A stretch of DNA of 64,000 nt from contig JAFWSH010000003.1 of the NCBI GenBank assembly GCA_017519405.1, forward strand, positions 1 through 64,000, written 5' to 3'. The translations under genes were made by a program, and so were the position numbers. Positions 49,015 to 57,540 of the stretch are shown in pieces. Source of the DNA: Clostridia bacterium (GTDB lineage: Bacteria; Bacillota; Clostridia; Christensenellales; Aristaeellaceae). The notes under the pieces are model-generated. The model did not search any database. It saw only the letters and a list, made by a program, of their open reading frames with translations, and was not told the DNA's origin. How positions within the stretch are numbered: the first letter of the stretch is position 1; each line of letters begins with the position of its first letter.

Positions 49015-52000
49015 TCACTGCCTCGTCTTCATCAGATCCAGCACCAGCTGCTCCAGAATCTTGATGAAGAAGGCCGCATCGCTGTCGCTGCGATGGGCGG
49101 CGGACTCCGCCAGATAGGACAGGATGGAGGGCACGGGCAGCCCGTCCGCGGTGAACAGACCCGGGAGCAGCACGTCGGCAGCGGCCGGGAAGGCCTGTTT
49201 GAAGAACAGCAGGAAGCGGGAGGCCAGCTGGTTGGGGGGCTCCACGCCGTCCAGGACACCGACGGAGGCACCGGGCAGGGGAGCCGTGGCGATGGCCAGC
49301 CCCAGGGCTGCCTCCCTCCCCGGCTCCGGGCTCAGAAAAACCGGGCAGGATGCCACCGGGTTTCCTTCCCCCATGGCCACCTGCAAAAAGCTGTTCAGCT
49401 GCCAGACAGAAGCCGCGTCCAGTCCCGCAAACAGCGGCACACCCAGATCGCACAGCACCAGGGGCAGATGGGCGGGAAGATGGATGGACAGGGCACTGTC
49501 CCAGCGGAGCTTCTCGATGGCCAGACCCATGACCGCAAAGCGCAGTGACAGGCTGTAGAGCAGCAGGGACTCCACAACGGCACCGGGGGCGTTTTGCCCG
49601 GCGGCCTTGATCCGATTGCGCAGCGCTCCGCCATGGCGGGCGATCAGAAGATCCAGCGTCTGCTGGAGATGCTCCATGTGGGAAGGATGCTCGGCTGACT
49701 GGACCGAAAAGTCGACAGCCTGCTGCATCAGCAGCTCAAAGCTGCTCCCTGCCTCTCCGACTGCCGGCGGGGAAAAGGCGTCGCGCAGCAAACCGGGACA
49801 GGCGGCACTGCAGCGCGCCAGCAGGGTCGTGACGCCGCCCGGCAGATCCCTGACCAGGGCAGGGCGCTCCATGCCCCGCAGCCAGATGGCCAGCCCGGAG
49901 GCCGCGCCGCCCAGATGCAGCATGGCAAAAGCCTGGTTGGGGTAAGGGATCCGCAGGAAACGCACGGCGCAGTTCAGCCGGCTCCCCGTGGGCAGCTTCA
50001 GCTGAATCGGCATGCCGGTCTCCCGGGAGAGGGAGGCAGCAATGCCGGCAAACTCCTCCGCCAGCCGCTGGGCGTCCATGGCCAGGAGGCTGTCGGGCAG
50101 CACCAGACGGGCGGTCAGATGATCGGCGTTCCGGAGGGCGGCGGCCAGGGACAGCAGGGTCAGGCACTCCTCCAGCATCAGCTTTCGGGCGCACCGGGAG
50201 GGCGTATCCTGGTGGTAGAGCAGCCTGGGAAGGGACTGGGGATCCTCCGCCAGACGGCCGTCCTGCCAGGGGAAGGGATCCTCACAGGGCTCCGTCATCA
50301 GCACCGAGGCAGGCAACTCCGGCCCGACGTCGAAGACGGGCAACGGTTCGCCCTCGTAGGTGGGCTGATTCCGCAGCAGCACCCGCCACAGGGACGCAAG
50401 GCTGAAGGGTTCGCCGGTGCCGTCGGCGCAGACCGCCAGATGAATCTCCGATCCGGTGGCGTCAATGGCCCCGGTCAGCTCGCCATCCGGCGTGTCCGTC
50501 ACCGGCTCGGTGATGTTCAGCACGGCCCCGAGATGACGGCCATTCTTGCTGACGGACACCGCATAAGGACAGTGCTCGGCCCGAATCACCGCGGGACGCT
50601 CCCCGCCGGCCGGGGACTCGAAGGCCTCCCAGCTGCCCCGGCGGAGCAGGCGCAGGGTCACATCCCCTGTGACGCTCAGGCAGTAGAGATGCCAGTGGTC
50701 CGGATGGAAGGCACGGCAAGGCCAGAGGGATATGGAGGGCACTTCCTCCACCAGGAGCTGCTGATCAGGGCTGTATACCCGGGTGAAGCTGATGGTCTGC
50801 TGTCCCTTCAGGGCGAAGGCTACCTCCACGGCGCCGCCGGGGAGCAGGGAGACCCGGGAGAGCGCCGGCTGGAAACCATCCCCTGTACAGCCATGGCGCG
50901 CCACATACTCGGCGGCCCGGTCCGAGAGGGGAGGCAGGATGCTGCGGCTGCCGGCATCCGTGTGGAGGGCGAACACCGCGTCCAGCATGGTATCGCCCAG
51001 CAGGGAATGGGGGAACAGAGTCAGGGTATCGGAGAAGAGATGAAACGCCACCCGGGCCAGCTCATCTCCCAGCGCTTCCCGCAGGGATGCCTGCAGGGCG
51101 GGAGACATGGCGTCCAGGGGGCATGACAGCACGGGAAGCTCCCGGGGGAGGAGGCTGGTGTCCCGCCAGTCGGATGCCCAGGCGGACACAGCCTGCGCTG
51201 CCTCCTGCGTGAGACAGTCCCGGTGCGTGTCCTGCCAGGCGGACAGGCTGTCGGCGGCTCCGGCCGGGAAAGCCCTGGACAGACGCCGCAGCAGGTCCAG
51301 CTCCTCCTTGAGCTCCGCCAGGGCATCCTCTGTCTCCCGGGCGGCAACGGGCGGCTCCAGGCCGATGCTGCCGGAGGAGACGGCGATGGGCACACCACGC
51401 CACAGCCAGGTTCTGGCTTCCCCGGGCGCCTGCCGGGTTTCGGAAATGCCCAGCCCGTCCAACAGTGCATTTCTGCCGGGGATGAAGGGCCTGTCGGCAA
51501 AGGTCAGCGCATCGAATTCCGGGCGGCTGTGCAGGCAGATGACCGCCTCCATTCGGGTGCGCCAGGCGGACGCGTCGTCCCCCTCCAGGGCGCTGTGGAC
51601 CAACGCCGCCTCCCGGGCGAGGAGCTCCTCCCGGAAAGCAGCAGCCTCCGGCGCGTCAAAAAAGCCGAGCCGCCGGATCAGCAGCGCCCGCTGCCGGCTG
51701 TCCAGAAAAGGAACGGGATCCCCGGGGACGCCGCCGTCCGCCCAGACCACCTCCCGGGGCAGCAGGCCGTTCAGTACAGGTTCCTGGGCGGCAGCCCGGA
51801 TCACCCGGTGGGGATCGGCGATGCCCAGCACTGCGTCCTGCCCGTCCAAGCTCCACAAAACCAACTGCAGCTTCTGCGAACTGGTCTGTTCCAGGATGGC
51901 GTCCGCCAGTGGGGACACGCCGGCTGCGAAGGTATGCAGGGAGAGTTCACCGGGGCCGAGGGTGTCGGCGAGCAGCACAAAAGCCGCCAGACCCCGCCAG

Positions 52001-52164
52001 GCGGCGGTATCCGGCGCTGTTTCAGGTGTGCCGGCATCCCGGGACCGCACAGCGGCGGGAGCCCGGCGGGTGAATCCGGCAGGCAGGGGCGTTATGCCGG
52101 CCTCGTGTACCCGCTCTGTCAGGTCCTCAGGCTCCTGGGAAAGAAGAAGCAGATAATCGGTCAT
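49015..52164 (-). CDS. very large protein of unknown function; C-terminal half resembles an actin/Hsp70-like fold
   Basis: 1049 residues, no signal peptide or clear membrane helix. The N-terminal ~300 residues are alpha/beta with phrases LVLWSLDGQDAVLGIADPHR and PIAVSSGSIGLEPPVA. A middle section (~290-560) is partly helical then beta-rich. The C-terminal ~450 residues show an order typical of actin/Hsp70 folds: a connect-like strand LTARLVLPDSLLAMDAQRLA (~683), a phosphate-2-like hairpin AFAMLHLGGAASGLAIWLRG (~746), and an adenosine-like LVLCDLGVPLFAGLDA (~900). The expected acidic and glycine residues are eroded (DxGGGT has become HLGGAA), so nucleotide turnover is doubtful. ATG 52164 lies 5 nt after GGAGG and 11 nt past the upstream stop, so it is co-expressed with the preceding gene. 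The fold assignment is inference. Confidence 0.8.
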   Translation of the reverse strand: MTDYLLLLSQEPEDLTERVHEAGITPLPAGFTRRAPAAVRSRDAGTPETAPDTAAWRGLAAFVLLADTLGPGELSLHTFAAGVSPLADAILEQTSSQKLQLVLWSLDGQDAVLGIADPHRVIRAAAQEPVLNGLLPREVVWADGGVPGDPVPFLDSRQRALLIRRLGFFDAPEAAAFREELLAREAALVHSALEGDDASAWRTRMEAVICLHSRPEFDALTFADRPFIPGRNALLDGLGISETRQAPGEARTWLWRGVPIAVSSGSIGLEPPVAARETEDALAELKEELDLLRRLSRAFPAGAADSLSAWQDTHRDCLTQEAAQAVSAWASDWRDTSLLPRELPVLSCPLDAMSPALQASLREALGDELARVAFHLFSDTLTLFPHSLLGDTMLDAVFALHTDAGSRSILPPLSDRAAEYVARHGCTGDGFQPALSRVSLLPGGAVEVAFALKGQQTISFTRVYSPDQQLLVEEVPSISLWPCRAFHPDHWHLYCLSVTGDVTLRLLRRGSWEAFESPAGGERPAVIRAEHCPYAVSVSKNGRHLGAVLNITEPVTDTPDGELTGAIDATGSEIHLAVCADGTGEPFSLASLWRVLLRNQPTYEGEPLPVFDVGPELPASVLMTEPCEDPFPWQDGRLAEDPQSLPRLLYHQDTPSRCARKLMLEECLTLLSLAAALRNADHLTARLVLPDSLLAMDAQRLAEEFAGIAASLSRETGMPIQLKLPTGSRLNCAVRFLRIPYPNQAFAMLHLGGAASGLAIWLRGMERPALVRDLPGGVTTLLARCSAACPGLLRDAFSPPAVGEAGSSFELLMQQAVDFSVQSAEHPSHMEHLQQTLDLLIARHGGALRNRIKAAGQNAPGAVVESLLLYSLSLRFAVMGLAIEKLRWDSALSIHLPAHLPLVLCDLGVPLFAGLDAASVWQLNSFLQVAMGEGNPVASCPVFLSPEPGREAALGLAIATAPLPGASVGVLDGVEPPNQLASRFLLFFKQAFPAAADVLLPGLFTADGLPVPSILSYLAESAAHRSDSDAAFFIKILEQLVLDLMKTRQ

Positions 52165-52175
52165 GGGAACCTCCG

Positions 52176-54032
52176 TCATACGGGGAGAACGGCTGAAACG
52201 GGATCACGGCGGGATGCGACGCTGAAAACGGCGTCAAGAAACGCAAGGGCCGCATCCGGGTGCGAACCGGGCTTTTCGTGCAGGATTTGCTCCTGAAGGG
52301 CTTTGACGGGCGACATGCCGGCAGGCCAGACGGACAGCAGCTCCTGGATCAACCGCTGTCTTGACCGGGTGTGCTCCTCCCCGATATCGCACAGAAGGGA
52401 GAGCCAGGCGTGCGGCCAGAACACGCTGGGCGGCGCCGCAGCGAGCTCCTCCAGGGCGGGGGGCGGCGTCAGGGGCTCCTGCAGGCTCAGGGCGTGATCC
52501 ACCTGTGCCTGATGGGCCCTGCCCTCCAGATTCGCCACGCGGCGTTCCATGCGGCGCAGCCGGGCGCGGGCCTGGTCGATTTTCGCCATCTCCTCCGGGC
52601 GGGCAATCTGGGCCGCGGCCTCGATGCGCCGGTGGGCCTCCCGGGCCTGCTGCTGGAGATCCTGATAGGCTTCCCGGGTCCGTTGGTCAAAACCGGCCAG
52701 CATGGAGCGCACGATACGGGCACCCAGGACCCGGTTCAGGGTGTTCTGCGCGTCCTGGGCGCCCTTCAGGTCCTCCTCCAGCAGATCCTGCTCCTGGAGG
52801 GCCTGGTCCACGGCCGTGTCCTCCGCGCTGCCGCGGTGAACAAAGCTGGTGTCGTGCAGACTGGTCTGCTCATTGTCGTAGGATACCAGGGCATACTGGC
52901 CGGCCAGGGTCAGCAGGGTGTCGTAGTGTGCGGCCGCTGCCTTTTCCGCCGCTTTCAATTCCGGAATGGGGCAGAAGACATAGGGGAGGGAAGCCTGCAC
53001 ATCCCGCAGAAAACAGACGGCGGCATGGAAAAGACGCCTGGCGGCCTCCAACTGGCGCATGGCACGCTGCCGCTGCTCCGGATCAGGCTTCCTGCGCGTA
53101 AAGAAGGCATTGAACCAGGGGTTCAGACGGTCCCGCAGCAGGTTGGGCGCACTGAGGGAACGGTTGGCTTCCGGTGCATAAAAGCACTCCCAGAGGGCGG
53201 CTGTCAACAGCAGGCTGTTCAACTGCCGGCCCCAGACATCCCCGTTGGGAGAGAAGCAATCCCAGCCTGCCTTCTCCTGGGCGGCTGCCACCGTATAGAT
53301 GCCTGTGCAGCCGTTCATGAAGGCGATCACAGAGCGGATGGCCAGCAGATGCAGCAAGTGCGGCGTGCCGGCATGGACGCGGCAGTCCGCGGGAAGCCCC
53401 AGCAGCCCGAGACAGCTCAGCTCGGGCATGTCAGCCAGGGCAGCGTTAGCGTCTTCCTCAGCGTCCTCCTGCCTGAAAGGCGTCAGGAAAACGGCCCCCA
53501 CCGGCTGCGAACCAGCCGCGGCCAGGAGCGCCTTCACAAGGTGCGGCACAGCGCCGCCGCAGCAGGGCTCGGCGAGGGCGCCTGCCACCACCGTGGGCAT
53601 CTCGCCTGCATCCTGCAGGAGATCGGCCAGCACCCCCTCCGGCTGGCGAAGGAGCATGCGCCAGGCGGTGGAAGCACTCTGCGCCGTGCCCGACATGGCG
53701 GGGCTGTGAGCCGCTTCCGCTGTACAGAAGGCTTGCAGCAGCCATTCGTCCCGGGGCTCGGTGACCATGCCGGCCAGGGAGGGGGAGCCTGTGAGGCTGC
53801 GGAGGGAAAGGATGGGCTGGAGTCCCGTGTGGCTGTCCAGCCCCCAGGCACCCCGCAGCCCTGCGTAGTCCGCATAGAGGGAATTCAGGCGGCGAAGGGC
53901 GGCCTCCGGCGGGTAGAGGAGCGTGACGCGGACCACATCCTCCCGGGAGACGATACCGCTCATGGCGCAGGTCAAAAGGCCCTCCGCCACCATGGCGCCC
54001 TCAGCGCCCAGGCACAGCAGGGATATCTTCAA
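52176..54032 (-). CDS. large protein of unknown function; possible degenerate tubulin/FtsZ-like domain plus helical region
   Basis: 618 residues from TTG 54032, chosen because GGGAGGGAGG lies 7 nt upstream and the reading MKISLLCLGAEGAMVAEGLL looks like a true N-terminus. It opens as a Rossmann-like beta-alpha unit with LGAEGA in place of GxGGxG. At ~147-186 there is TVVAGALAEPCCGGAVPHLV then a strand PVGAVFLTPF. This resembles the tubulin/FtsZ T4 loop (GSxxGGTGA) and following strand, but with key glycines lost. Residues ~400-515 are strongly helical (QALQEQDLLEEDLKGAQDAQ, RARLRRMERRVANLEGRAHQ), likely a coiled coil. No transmembrane helix. It pairs with the 1049-residue protein. Confidence 0.8.
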   Translation of the reverse strand: MKISLLCLGAEGAMVAEGLLTCAMSGIVSREDVVRVTLLYPPEAALRRLNSLYADYAGLRGAWGLDSHTGLQPILSLRSLTGSPSLAGMVTEPRDEWLLQAFCTAEAAHSPAMSGTAQSASTAWRMLLRQPEGVLADLLQDAGEMPTVVAGALAEPCCGGAVPHLVKALLAAAGSQPVGAVFLTPFRQEDAEEDANAALADMPELSCLGLLGLPADCRVHAGTPHLLHLLAIRSVIAFMNGCTGIYTVAAAQEKAGWDCFSPNGDVWGRQLNSLLLTAALWECFYAPEANRSLSAPNLLRDRLNPWFNAFFTRRKPDPEQRQRAMRQLEAARRLFHAAVCFLRDVQASLPYVFCPIPELKAAEKAAAAHYDTLLTLAGQYALVSYDNEQTSLHDTSFVHRGSAEDTAVDQALQEQDLLEEDLKGAQDAQNTLNRVLGARIVRSMLAGFDQRTREAYQDLQQQAREAHRRIEAAAQIARPEEMAKIDQARARLRRMERRVANLEGRAHQAQVDHALSLQEPLTPPPALEELAAAPPSVFWPHAWLSLLCDIGEEHTRSRQRLIQELLSVWPAGMSPVKALQEQILHEKPGSHPDAALAFLDAVFSVASRRDPVSAVLPV

Positions 54033-54109: not shown

Positions 54110-55126
54110 TCAGGTGGTGTATCCGTTGGGGTTCATGCACTGCCAGCGCCAGGCGTCGCGGCACATATCCTCCAGCGTCTTTTTCGCTTCCCAGCCCAGC
54201 AGACGCTTGGCCTTGGCGGGGTCCGCAAAGCACGCGTCCACATCGCCTGGACGCCGGGGTCCGATGACATAGGGCACCTTGACGCCGTTGACCCGCTCAA
54301 AGGCCTGTACCATGTCCAGCACGCTGTAGCCCACGCCTGTGCCCAGGTTGATGATCTCGCAGCCGCTGTGTCCGGCGGCGTAGGCGCAGGCATCCACATG
54401 CCCGCGGGCCAGGTCTACCACGTGGATGTAGTCCCGGACGCCGGTGCCGTCATGGGTGTTGTAATCATCGCCGAAGACGTTCAGATGGGGGAGCTGCCCG
54501 GCGGCGACCTTGGTGATGAAGGGCATCAGGTTGTTGGGCAGGCCGTTGGGATTCTCGCCGATGCGGCCGCTCTCATGGGCACCCACCGGGTTGAAGTAGC
54601 GCAGCAGCACCACGGACCAGGAGGGGTCTGCCTGGGCGACGCCCATCAGGATCTTCTCGATCATGTACTTGGTCCACCCGTAGGGATTGGTGCAGCCCTT
54701 GCAGAACATGTCCTCCCGGAGTGGCACCTCGTCCGGCACGCCGTAGACGGTGGCAGAGGAGGAGAAAACCAGACGCTTCACCCCGTGGGCGGCCATGGTC
54801 TCGCACAGGGTCAGGGCGGAGTCCAGGTTGTTGCGGTAATAGCGCAGGGGCTGCGCCACGCTCTCGCCGACTGCCTTCAGACCCGCAAAGTGGATCACCG
54901 CATCAATGGCATGCTCGGAGAAGATGCGGTCCATGGCTGCCCGGTCGCACACGTCCGCCTCATAGTGGGGGATGGTGCGGCCGGTGAGCTCCTCCACCCG
55001 GCGGACGGCTTCCGGCTGACTGTTGACATAATTGTCCACAATGACGACATCGTGGCCGGCACTGATCAGTTCCACGCAGGTGTGGGTTGCGATGAATCCG
55101 GCGCCGCCCGTAAGCAGAATGTTCAT
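54110..55126 (-). CDS. galE: UDP-glucose 4-epimerase
   Basis: 338 residues, full length. The NAD-binding motif MNILLTGGAGFIATHTCVEL, catalytic Ser124 in FSSSATVYG and Tyr149/Lys153 in NPYGWTKYMIEK define an extended SDR epimerase. GDDYNTHDGTGVRDYIHVVD and GPRRPGDVD are GalE-specific. It interconverts UDP-glucose and UDP-galactose, and here ends an operon with a nucleotidyltransferase and a sugar transferase, so it probably feeds the same polymer. Confidence 0.95.
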   Translation of the reverse strand: MNILLTGGAGFIATHTCVELISAGHDVVIVDNYVNSQPEAVRRVEELTGRTIPHYEADVCDRAAMDRIFSEHAIDAVIHFAGLKAVGESVAQPLRYYRNNLDSALTLCETMAAHGVKRLVFSSSATVYGVPDEVPLREDMFCKGCTNPYGWTKYMIEKILMGVAQADPSWSVVLLRYFNPVGAHESGRIGENPNGLPNNLMPFITKVAAGQLPHLNVFGDDYNTHDGTGVRDYIHVVDLARGHVDACAYAAGHSGCEIINLGTGVGYSVLDMVQAFERVNGVKVPYVIGPRRPGDVDACFADPAKAKRLLGWEAKKTLEDMCRDAWRWQCMNPNGYTT

Positions 55127-55165: not shown

Positions 55166-56065
55166 TTACAGCCTTTCGGGGTACTCGCCGCTGCGGTGCT
55201 TCTCGGCCAGGGCCGCCTGCACCAGAGGCTTGTCCTGGCGGTAGGTGACGCCGAACCATTTGGCGTGGGTGCGCAGGACGCGGACCGGCAGGCACTCCTC
55301 CCGCATGAGGGTATCGATGAGGGTAGGCAGCAGAAACTCACACTTCAGCGGGTCTGCGCCGGGAGCTTCCAGGAAGGCGCGGAACCGGGATTCCGCGGCG
55401 GAGAAGAACCAGGGAGTCAGCCCCCAGAAATTCATGGAGACCGGCGTGGCGGCATCCAGCGCAGGGCCGGCAGAATCCCCGGAGAAGTCCCGGATCAGCC
55501 CATGCTCATCCCGGCCCAGCTTGTAGGTCTCCACCACGCGCTCCAGCAGGCCCTCATCGCTGACCCGGCAGAGCCCCCGGGTCACGGTGCCGTTTTCGGA
55601 GAGCGTGTTGCCCAGGTCGTAGGCCACCATGCAGGCCTGGGCGCCTTCCATCTGATGAAGGGCTCCGGCGATGGTGACGAAGGCGTCCTTGCCATAGTAG
55701 TCATCAGCGTTTACCACCGCGAAGGGGCCGTCGATGGCGTCCCGGGCACACAGCACGGCGTGGACGGTCCCATAGGGCTTCACCCGCTCTGCCGGCGGAA
55801 CGAAGCCCCCCGGCAGGCTGTCGTACTCCTGGAAGGCATAGACCACCTGACACTTGCGGCTGATGCGGTCGCCGATCAGCTGGTGGAAGCGCTCCTCCAT
55901 CTGCCGGCGAATCACGAAGACCACCCGGTCAAAGCCGGCGTTCAGGGCGTCGTGGACCGTGTAGTCCACCAGAATCTCATTGTGCGGGCCCAGACCGTCC
56001 ACCTGCTTGTCGCCGCCATAGCGGGAGCCCATGCCGGCGGCCATGATCAGGAGTGTGGTTGACAC
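55166..56065 (-). CDS. sugar-phosphate nucleotidyltransferase family protein
   Basis: 299 residues from GTG 56065, with AAGGAAGG upstream and 19 nt overlap with the preceding gene. The nucleotide-binding motif MAAGMGSRYGGDKQVDGLGP and the metal-binding FAVVNADDYYGKDAF place it in the NTP_transferase family. Later segments (TPVSMNFWGLTPWFFSAAES, THAKWFGVTYRQDKP) are typical of this clostridial subgroup. It should charge a sugar phosphate for the adjacent sugar transferase and GalE. The exact nucleotide and sugar are unknown. Confidence 0.87.
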   Translation of the reverse strand: MSTTLLIMAAGMGSRYGGDKQVDGLGPHNEILVDYTVHDALNAGFDRVVFVIRRQMEERFHQLIGDRISRKCQVVYAFQEYDSLPGGFVPPAERVKPYGTVHAVLCARDAIDGPFAVVNADDYYGKDAFVTIAGALHQMEGAQACMVAYDLGNTLSENGTVTRGLCRVSDEGLLERVVETYKLGRDEHGLIRDFSGDSAGPALDAATPVSMNFWGLTPWFFSAAESRFRAFLEAPGADPLKCEFLLPTLIDTLMREECLPVRVLRTHAKWFGVTYRQDKPLVQAALAEKHRSGEYPERL

Positions 56066-57471
56066 GCGTCATCCTTCCTTTCCTCTTGCTGCAGCGCATC
56101 CGTGGTGACGAAGGGTGCAGCGGAATCCTTTTTGAAAAACACCGTCAGCGTCCGGAAGAGCAGCCGGACGTCGTTCCACAGAGAGAAGCTCTCGATGTAC
56201 ATGAGGTCCAGCATCAGCTTGTCCTCCGGGTTGGTGTTGTAGCGTCCTTCAATCTGTGCATAGCCGGTGAGGCCGGCCTTCATTTTCTCCCGGTAGACAA
56301 ACGTGGGCATGGCCGATTTGTAGCGCTGGATGTTGTCCAGCATCTCCGGCCGGGGCCCCACCAGGGTCATGTCGCCCACCAGAATGTTCCAGAACTGGGG
56401 CAGCTCATCCAACCGGGCGCGCCGGAGAAAACGTCCCAGGGGCGTGACCCGCGGATCCTGCTCCACCTCCGATTCCGCAGGGGCTGTGCCCTCCGGCGCA
56501 GCGCTGCGCATGGTGCGGAATTTCCTGATGGTAAAGCGGCGGCCGCCCACAGTCAGGCGCTCCTGGCGGAAGAAGACCGGCCTGCCGTCTGTCAGGAGAA
56601 TGGCCAGGGCGATCAGCAGCATCAGGGGGGAGGCAATCACCAGCACCGCCAGGCTGACCAGGATGTCGCCCAGACGCTTGAGGATCCGCTGGCCCAGGGA
56701 CATTTTGTGGTAGTCCATCTCCAGGAACAGCGAGTCGTCAATCACCAGGGGCTGGGCCGCGGAGAGCATAATGTCCTGCAGCTGGGCACGGGCCAGCACA
56801 TCCCGGTGGAGGTCGTAGCAGATCTTCATCAGCCGCATCCGTTCCTGATCCGGGACATCCGCCAGAAACACGGCGTCAGCGCGCTCGATCCGGTCGGCCA
56901 GGCCGGGATCGGACCAGAGCGCCGTGTCCGAGACATGCCACTGCAGGCTGTAGCGGCTGATCTTCTCCGCCATGGCGTCCCTGTCGCTGCCGGCGTCCAG
57001 GATCAGCAGGCAGGCGCGGGGCTGCCGGATGCGGAAATAGATCCGGTTGCCCACCCGCACCATCAGAATCAGAAGGAGGGTCTGGAGCACCGCCGCCAGC
57101 ATCAGCCACCAGAAATCCTCGCCGAACAGCGTCAGGTGGGCCCGGTTATCCGGGTTGACGTTCATGATCTGCAGCTGCAGATAGGTGACCAGGTCCACAC
57201 ACAGATTGGCCAGGGCCATGGAGGAGATGATGGGCTTGCTCTTTTTCTTTCCGATGTCGTAACCGCCGTAGACTGCAATCATGGTGACGGTCATCACCGT
57301 CCAGGTCAGCAGCGTGGTGGCCAGGGTCCGGTTGATATGCCGCAGCTGCCAGTTGGGAATGCCCAGCAGCCCGAAAAACAGCGCCATGAGTCCCAGATAG
57401 GTGAGGGCCCGCAGCAGGCCGACGGCGATCTCGGTGCGGTGTCTGCGGAGCGCCCCGGCGATTTTGCGCAT
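56047..57471 (-). CDS. polyprenyl glycosylphosphotransferase (WcaJ/CpsE-like sugar transferase)
   Basis: 474 residues, the long form. Four membrane helices occupy the first ~150 residues, followed by a CoA-binding-like Rossmann region (ACLLILDAGSDRDAMAEKIS). A fifth reentrant helix (~275-300) leads into the catalytic domain: TDGRPVFFRQERLTVGG, IRKFRTM, RRARLDELPQFWNILVGDMT, LVGPRPE and AGLTGYAQIEGRYNT. It starts an exopolysaccharide or capsule on undecaprenyl phosphate. ATG 57471 has AAGGAGG 10 nt upstream. It is the second such initiator in the window, the first being the short form at 13962. Confidence 0.92.
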   Translation of the reverse strand: MRKIAGALRRHRTEIAVGLLRALTYLGLMALFFGLLGIPNWQLRHINRTLATTLLTWTVMTVTMIAVYGGYDIGKKKSKPIISSMALANLCVDLVTYLQLQIMNVNPDNRAHLTLFGEDFWWLMLAAVLQTLLLILMVRVGNRIYFRIRQPRACLLILDAGSDRDAMAEKISRYSLQWHVSDTALWSDPGLADRIERADAVFLADVPDQERMRLMKICYDLHRDVLARAQLQDIMLSAAQPLVIDDSLFLEMDYHKMSLGQRILKRLGDILVSLAVLVIASPLMLLIALAILLTDGRPVFFRQERLTVGGRRFTIRKFRTMRSAAPEGTAPAESEVEQDPRVTPLGRFLRRARLDELPQFWNILVGDMTLVGPRPEMLDNIQRYKSAMPTFVYREKMKAGLTGYAQIEGRYNTNPEDKLMLDLMYIESFSLWNDVRLLFRTLTVFFKKDSAAPFVTTDALQQEERKDDACQPHS

Positions 57472-57511
57472 GGCACGACACCCTCCTTTCCGCCGCCATG
57501 GCTGTATGCTC

Positions 57512-57540
57512 ATCATAGCATGAACCCCATTTCAAGTCAA
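57512..57540 (-). promoter_or_regulatory. promoter of the sugar transferase-nucleotidyltransferase-galE operon
   Basis: Minus-strand TTGACT (57540-57535), 17 nt, TATGAT (57517-57512). Confidence 0.75.

Follow-up and report, generated by a model that had tools for sequence, protein, structure and literature searches.

We report on two adjoining genes in a 64,000-nucleotide stretch of the genome of a gut bacterium of the Clostridia (GenBank assembly GCA_017519405.1, contig JAFWSH010000003.1, positions 1 to 64,000; hereafter the window), which encode a tubulin-like protein with a coiled coil (A) and an actin-like protein (B), both with eroded nucleotide-binding motifs, whilst pairs with complete motifs are found in related genomes. 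In our judgement the pair has probably arisen from an FtsZ/FtsA-like membrane pair that was turned into a nucleotide-independent scaffold. A preliminary description, made from the DNA letters without database searches, had proposed paired tubulin-like and actin-like proteins that are both motif-eroded, and this reading stands; to it we add the intact relatives, their operon, a fusion of the two genes, the stages through which the pair has changed, signs of selection and structural models.

The two open reading frames (ORFs; Table 1) are co-directional, with 11 nt between the stop codon of A and the ATG of B, and GGGAGGGAGGCGAG precedes the TTG start of A; our ORF calls agree with those described previously in length, spacing and direction. 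Scans of both window proteins against Pfam, NCBIfam, PHROGs and PADLOC returned no convincing match, in keeping with the earlier statement that neither could be placed in a nameable family: the best library matches were of the coiled-coil type and to A (e.g. PADLOC PDC-M03B, E 0.005). The window genome (2.27 Mb, 80% complete) also encodes an FtsZ and an MreB, so that A and B are extra to these.

Comparison with the intact relatives locates the eroded motifs. Intact A proteins exhibit GG[TS]GxK at their start and GS[IV]FGGTGA at the T4 loop, and intact B proteins exhibit DFG[ST] at phosphate-1, E[SN]xAxG at connect-1, DxGG[GS][ST]xD/E at phosphate-2 and GxG at the adenosine motif; the GGTG-type T4 loop is present in 17/17 intact A proteins with a paired B, and all four B motifs are present in their partners. 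In window A this loop is replaced by PCCGG: residues 151-162, GALAEPCCGGAV, which had been picked out as T4-like from the sequence alone, align under GSIFGGTGASGI of intact A. In window B, TGAIDATGSE aligns under VMALDFGSTG of phosphate-1, a strand absent from the segments listed earlier, and MLHLGGAASGLAIWLRG aligns under NMDVGGGTTDLSVWLGG; the connect-, phosphate-2- and adenosine-like segments that had been listed all fall in the intact motif columns. Since the relatives align column for column with the intact motifs, these segments represent more than chance resemblance. Lost from the window proteins are the phosphate-2 aspartate, the connect-1 glutamate, the GxG of the adenosine motif and the GTG of T4. 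On a motif score of 7 residues for A and 14 for B, selected by us on the basis of canonical positions and of the consensus of the intact forms, all 17 intact pairs reach 7/7 and 14/14 (partly by choice of positions), the 46 derived pairs range from 0 to 7 for A and from 1 to 13 for B, and the window pair scores 2/7 and 4/14, which bears out the replacement of catalytic residues claimed for both proteins. Complete-motif forms occur in genera g25, g9, g11, g5, g6 and g20 of the window's family, in g72 (another family of the same order) and in genome G928 (another order), with intact A-B pairs spanning three families and two orders; in a fourth family (G310) an intact A lies on a contig that ends before B.

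Profile-profile comparison links the window-side proteins to the intact families over their whole length, both for A (probability 100, E 1.4e-54, 600 columns) and for B (probability 100, E 1e-118, 1,054 columns). Against a profile of true Tubulin_2 proteins, intact A matches at the T4 region (E 1.7e-6, probability 90) and window-side A at the same place (E 0.018, probability 2.5); against FtsZ, intact A reaches an E of 0.22 only, at the T4 loop only. Three intact A proteins reach Pfam Tubulin_2 at E 5.2e-6 to 3.4e-4 and one matches Pfam Tubulin at E 4.7e-4, under the curated cut-off; the PF13809 (Tubulin_2) scores of seven intact relatives are 11.9-26.4 bits, below the cut-off of 27, and in the Pfam scan of window A this family was not listed at E up to 10. 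For B, the MreB profile is matched by the intact family (E 1.9e-6, probability 90) and by the window side (E 8.3e-5, probability 61, 175 columns from phosphate-1 to phosphate-2). When PDB sequences were searched, the profile of intact A gave no match to E 1, and that of intact B gave exopolyphosphatase (0.0068), actin (0.33) and MreB (0.37).

AlphaFold2 models were confident for both proteins: A (37 sequences) with a predicted local distance difference test (pLDDT) score of 91.4 and a predicted template modelling (pTM) score of 0.89, and B (36 sequences) with 88.1 and 0.77, residues 1-50 being unordered. The A model contains strand 2-8, helix 9-25, strand 33-39, helix 43-63, strand 74-80, helices to 142, strand 147-152, helix 156-173, strand 178-183, helix 192-200, strand 207-211, further helices and then the long helices 407-518, which correspond to the coiled coil noted earlier. 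The predicted order of parts is an N-terminal FtsZ-like domain, an extended coiled coil and a helical domain, and set against the general tubulin topology the modelled elements follow the order of a tubulin GTPase domain and then a coiled coil, with T4 in the right place, the eroded loop sitting between strand 147-152 and helix 156-173. The modelled residues 562-957 of B contain the order beta-beta-beta-alpha-beta-alpha-beta-alpha twice (first repeat: 562-569, 573-580, 583-586, 654-677, 682-689, 695-716, 720-722 and 729-737; second repeat: 746-751, 755-761, 770-776, helices, 902-905, 909-925, 942-944 and 951-957). Together with the MreB profile match, this makes B in the model a protein with two RNase-H-like subdomains in order as in actin and Hsp70, going by the general topology of that fold. 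Both fold proposals of the preliminary description are supported: the tubulin-like one by the Tubulin_2 match of intact A, the whole-length link to the window side and the modelled element order, and the actin-like one by the MreB matches on both sides and the duplicated domain of the model.

Across 308 genomes of the window's taxonomic family, A was matched in 47 and B in 97. Each of the 40 genomes with an A match below E 1e-8 also has B. In 39 of them B shares contig and strand with A and lies downstream of it, A and B being found at two contig ends in the remaining one (G209); co-occurrence and neighbourhood of the two genes, on which the earlier proposal depended, are thereby upheld. The pair is present in 11 of the 12 genomes of genus g1. 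In genus g4, A and B form one fused ORF: B is matched in 37/45 genomes, with an ORF of 1,589-1,828 aa in 35 of the 37. An A profile built without g4 detects the N-terminal half, at E 1e-23 to 2e-55, in all 22 of the fused sequences that were tested, among which two genes or more are counted twice; as controls, 0/22 shuffled halves and 6/66 B sequences fell below E 1, the latter comprising G016 at 3.8e-5, probably owing to the position at which its fused ORF was cut, and five others at 0.025-0.84. The fusion of the two neighbours suggests that A and B are physical partners.

The erosion has proceeded to different degrees in living genera. In a tree of B, the pairs of g1, g41, g44 and g4 form one clade (support 99/97, 43 rows); with g8 added, the Shimodaira-Hasegawa-like approximate likelihood ratio test (SH-aLRT) gives 97, deep joins being unsure owing to long branches, and window B itself sits on a long branch. 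The T4 GTG of A is kept in 11/18 genomes of g41; in g4 the A motifs are lost (0-2 of 7) and most actin motifs of B are kept (9-13 of 14); in g1 and g44 the A motifs are lost and those of B are lost variably. By parsimony on this tree the T4 motif requires at least two changes, if regain is allowed, and phosphate-2 at least seven. Among the 46 pairs of the derived clade there is no support for coupled decay of A and B (Spearman 0.11, p 0.47); the correlation is 0.68 within g41 (p 0.002, n=18) and, trivially, 0.57 over all 63 pairs, and a test on independent pairs had one usable pair only.

Selection was assessed through the ratio of nonsynonymous to synonymous substitution rates (dN/dS, Nei-Gojobori method, NG86) in pairs of closely related species, with values given for A and B respectively. 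Five eroded pairs gave 0.32 and 0.27 (G125/G129), 0.28 and 0.36 (G123/G124), 0.13 and 0.14 (G206/G213), 0.23 and 0.25 (G203/G210) and 0.13 and 0.10 (G248/G251); three intact pairs gave 0.26 and 0.33 (G101/G102), 0.25 and 0.22 (G058/G063) and 0.19 and 0.29 (G093/G108). The eroded genes of these close relatives are thus under purifying selection (0.10-0.36, versus 0.19-0.33 for the intact pairs), and the fused A halves of g4 gave 0.08-0.24. In addition, position 400 of A is Arg in 46/46 derived rows, in the g8 and g24 rows, and invariably in a separate 37-row alignment; among 17 intact rows this column holds Arg in two (G070, G088) and a gap in nine. That Arg400, in a loop ahead of the coiled coil, is invariant while the old motifs vanish points to a new job rather than to decay. 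In one g24 genome (G092, L066:6416-9625) three stop codons, all of them TAG, break the B match, with A open: either B is a pseudogene there or TAG encodes an amino acid.

At intact loci the pair is preceded by two further genes, C and D, in the order C-D-A-B. C is an exported lipoprotein of ~550-700 aa, found in 19/20 intact-type loci (in the exception, G059, the contig ends there), and D is a membrane protein of ~170-240 aa in which hydrophobic segments number two to four and in most cases three. Since letters of a D-x-S/T-x-S-M-like kind follow a strand in C, as judged by eye (FIDGSESM in L182, VDGTPSM in g72, LDASQVM in g25), a von Willebrand factor type A (vWA) domain is suggested; the Pfam VWA model gave no match in the intact-locus C proteins scanned. 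C matches below E 1e-15 occur in 30/308 family genomes, with none in g1, g44, g4, g8 or g24 and one among the 18 genomes of g41 (G212), and C was not found in the 80% complete window genome; a count of 105/308 that included matches of ~1e-6 to 1e-3 was discarded because these mostly cover the signal-peptide end of the model. In G212, a contig of 4 kb (L200, G212:C10) carries C and D apart from the A/B pair, which is elsewhere, these two genes being either a second operon copy or contamination (estimated at 5%). A single C/D change on the tree only restates the clade, as the state was set by genus and G212 passed over.

Further genes accompany some intact loci. C of G310 is preceded by a further vWA protein, 652 aa long (L182:1277-3232; PF00092 E 9e-5, just under cut-off), and in three intact operons (L178-L180; family f23, genus g72) a gene starting MPSSY was seen after B, that of L180, the one tested, having Sel1 repeats (Pfam E 9e-14). 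In G928 (L252:5257-15971), intact C-D-A-B is followed by a coiled-coil gene and by ZorA- and ZorB-like (MotA/MotB-type) genes (PADLOC E 3e-11 and 5e-19), which may connect tubulin/actin pairs with ion-driven motors; phmmer searches of the other fetched loci with these proteins (the window being covered over 47.5-55.5 kb) gave one weak ZorB-like match (L119, 6e-6) and no ZorA-like gene, ZorC/D/E not being sought. The intact four-gene operon would be a membrane machine of Clostridia, of which we found no description in the main texts of open-licence PMC papers.

The window pair lies behind genes that we take, from sequence resemblance, to act in envelope-sugar metabolism (Table 1). With the nucleotidyltransferase serving as bait, 80 named loci were retrieved, many of them recorded from ruminant gut (goat, sheep, deer, yak) as Clostridia, Clostridiales or Christensenellaceae. 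A is present in 36 of these loci; the other 44, several of them short contigs, have none. A galE-like ORF lies at most ~400 bp upstream of A in 30/36 loci and the nucleotidyltransferase is next upstream in the other six, so that one of the two is directly upstream in 36/36, in loci chosen by that bait. An envelope-sugar role of the pair is suggested through this guilt by association.

Table 1. Positions of the gene pair, its motifs and neighbouring genes in the window
Feature	Position	Strand	Basis
Gene A, tubulin-like with coiled coil	52176..54032	-	ORF, 618 aa, TTG start
A residues 1-260, degenerate tubulin-type GTPase domain (predicted)	53253..54032	-	strand/helix order of model; comparison with general tubulin topology
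A residues 7-14, eroded T1-like loop CLGAEGAM (intact example AIGGTGNK)	53991..54014	-	aligned columns
A residues 150-162, eroded T4 loop AGALAEPCCGGAV (intact example CGSIFGGTGASGI)	53547..53585	-	aligned columns and model
A residues 397-412, loop with Arg400, VHRxSxxDTExE-like in derived clade	52797..52844	-	alignment
A residues 407-518, long coiled-coil helices	52479..52814	-	model
Gene B, actin-like protein	49015..52164	-	ORF, 1049 aa, ATG start
B residues 53-550, N-terminal region, no family match	50515..52008	-	model
B residues 562-957, degenerate actin/Hsp70-type domain (predicted)	49294..50481	-	model, general topology of the fold, and MreB profile match
B phosphate-1, residues 564-576, TGAIDATGSEIHL (intact example VMALDFGSTGTAV)	50437..50475	-	aligned columns
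B connect-1 position, PTGSRLNCAVRFL (intact example LFASENQADGLYF)	49954..49992	-	aligned columns
B phosphate-2, residues 745-764, AFAMLHLGGAASGLAIWLRG (intact example GFLNMDVGGGTTDLSVWLGG)	49873..49932	-	aligned columns
B adenosine-motif position, PLVLCDLGVPLFA (intact example EICVAGNGGQFLK)	49426..49464	-	aligned columns
galE-like UDP-sugar epimerase upstream of A	54110..55126	-	name presumed from sequence resemblance
Sugar nucleotidyltransferase-like gene, same cluster	55166..56065	-	name presumed
Sugar (undecaprenyl-phosphate) transferase-like gene, same cluster	56047..57516	-	ORF; name presumed

We propose that in the ancestor a tubulin-like protein with a coiled coil and a protein of the actin/Hsp70 fold presumably switched with GTP and ATP and would have assembled at the inner face of the membrane, where the small membrane protein D would tie the pair to the exported lipoprotein C; the tubulin-like part would form a polymer or ring and the actin-like part an adaptor, as FtsZ does with FtsA. 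In the one clade that includes the window, C and D are absent from the locus, the pair lies behind envelope-sugar genes and the nucleotide sites have eroded over time: one genus has apparently lost the A site and mostly kept that of B, and little of either site survives in the window. The motif losses suggest that nucleotide binding has been lost, and the proteins would have been kept because the folded pair is itself useful as a nucleotide-independent scaffold, in which A and B may form a complex and polymerise, held by direct A-B contacts and the coiled coil of A, and which probably organises enzymes of envelope polysaccharide synthesis at the membrane. The strongest form of this proposal, in which a nucleotide-driven machine has become a fuel-free composite of pseudo-tubulin and pseudo-actin that assemble only with each other, joined into a single chain in one genus, and serve envelope polysaccharide synthesis, is put forward tentatively.

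Both proteins could instead still bind nucleotides via altered, non-canonical loops, with dynamic assembly retained and only the signature changed. FtsA-like proteins work with weak ATPases, and both the 9-13 of 14 motif residues kept by B of g4 and the T4 GTG kept by 11/18 A proteins of g41 are consistent with such a reading; the window pair, however, lacks the phosphate-2 aspartate, the connect-1 glutamate, the adenosine GxG and the T4 GTG, and we regard retained binding as unlikely. Doubtful also, and a little more so, is the reading that the pair is left over from a tubulin/vWA/HSP70-type system for membrane sensing or conflict (defence), with A and B as effectors or thresholding parts: tubulin, vWA and HSP70 parts do appear in such systems in the sections of Kaur et al. 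2020 (PMC7159879) that treat them, the intact operon encodes a lipoprotein with a vWA-like stretch and a membrane protein, ZorA/ZorB-like genes follow B in G928 and divergence is rapid, yet PADLOC gave no convincing match for the window pair or for two A and two B relatives (best E 0.005-0.008, on which membership of a defence system was rejected), and the derived pair keeps a fixed place beside envelope-sugar genes in the named loci and is present in 11/12 g1 genomes.

Two further explanations appear highly improbable. Were A and B decaying relics heading for loss, this would agree with the progressive motif loss, the long branch of window B and the stop-broken B of G092, but stop-to-stop frames no shorter than 600 aa for A and 1,048 aa for B persist in 37/38 genomes of g1, g41 and g44 (in G130 B is cut by a contig end), Arg400 is a newly fixed residue, and since dN/dS of the eroded pairs falls in the range of the intact ones, decay is largely refuted for the relatives. 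Least probable of all is a fortuitous resemblance to tubulin and actin in proteins of other folds: although the window proteins have no Pfam match, and intact A has no PDB match and matches FtsZ weakly, intact pairs with canonical motifs occur in three families and two orders, intact A reaches Pfam Tubulin_2 and Tubulin (both under the curated cut-offs), and B is tied to actins by the MreB profile matches and both proteins to their folds by the modelled element order.

Among the closest known systems is the FtsZ-FtsA division pair, where neighbouring genes encode tubulin-fold and actin-fold partners acting at the membrane; A and B differ in belonging to other families, in their large extra domains, C/D partners, motif loss and one-chain fusion, and in residing in a genome with its own FtsZ. 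SrfB (PF07520) is likewise an operon-encoded, actin-fold-like protein of ~1000 aa, but PF07520 was not matched in seven B-type proteins (Pfam, E up to 10 or 1). The parts of Makarova and Koonin 2010 (PMC2875224) that concern them describe FtsZl1/Tubulin_2 (PF13809) and vWA operons, and a passage of PMC9871819 calls Tubulin_2 proteins FtsZ-like. The former resemble the present system in an FtsZ-like N-terminal domain with a GGTG loop, a coiled coil and a helical C-terminus, in an operon that encodes membrane proteins together with a vWA-type protein, either exported or in the membrane (putatively C in the present case), and in being extra to the division FtsZ (PMC2875224); however, the intact relatives score below the PF13809 cut-off and window A lacks a match, no GTPase or kinase was noticed in the A/B operons, and the main-text passages of PMC2875224 name no actin-like partner, the supplementary unnamed families A1-A2 and B1-B9 being ones that could hold B.

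The overview in PMC7159879 combines GTPases with tubulin homologues and an HSP70 protein, its section 29 treating the tubulin and HSP70 themes as non-overlapping and GTPase-centred. These GAP1-N2 systems share with A/B coiled-coil tubulin-domain proteins, vWA proteins with an extracellular domain (here putatively C), HSP70-family proteins, a place near the membrane and occurrence in Firmicutes, according to the sections concerned; here, in contrast, the tubulin-like and actin/HSP70-fold proteins are constant neighbours, and no TRAFAC GTPase or GAP1 was noticed beside A/B among the listed neighbour ORFs, not all of which were scanned with family models. The window genome has what looks like a Kaur-type locus separate from the pair: it encodes two proteins that exceed the Pfam cut-off for Tubulin_2 (E 2.4e-47 and 1e-30), at G000:C4:105886-106827 (L248:9887-10828) and G000:C20:59146-60054 (L249:9147-10055), and the gene on C4 is followed by zinc-ribbon and GAP1-N2-like genes (named by eye), as in systems of that type. 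CoCoNuTs (PMC11090510) were rejected as a counterpart, as they have Hsp70-like parts and the relevant passages of that source make no mention of tubulin. Within open-licence PMC papers we found no tubulin-like/actin-like pair of this kind, intact or eroded.

Tubulins and actins are defined by nucleotide-driven assembly, and A and B would, if the proposal is true, show these folds kept purely as building parts. Because the intermediate steps survive in living genera, the conversion can be traced and tested motif by motif: the series of intact, half-eroded, fused and fully eroded forms makes the question of what remains of a cytoskeletal switch without turnover directly testable.

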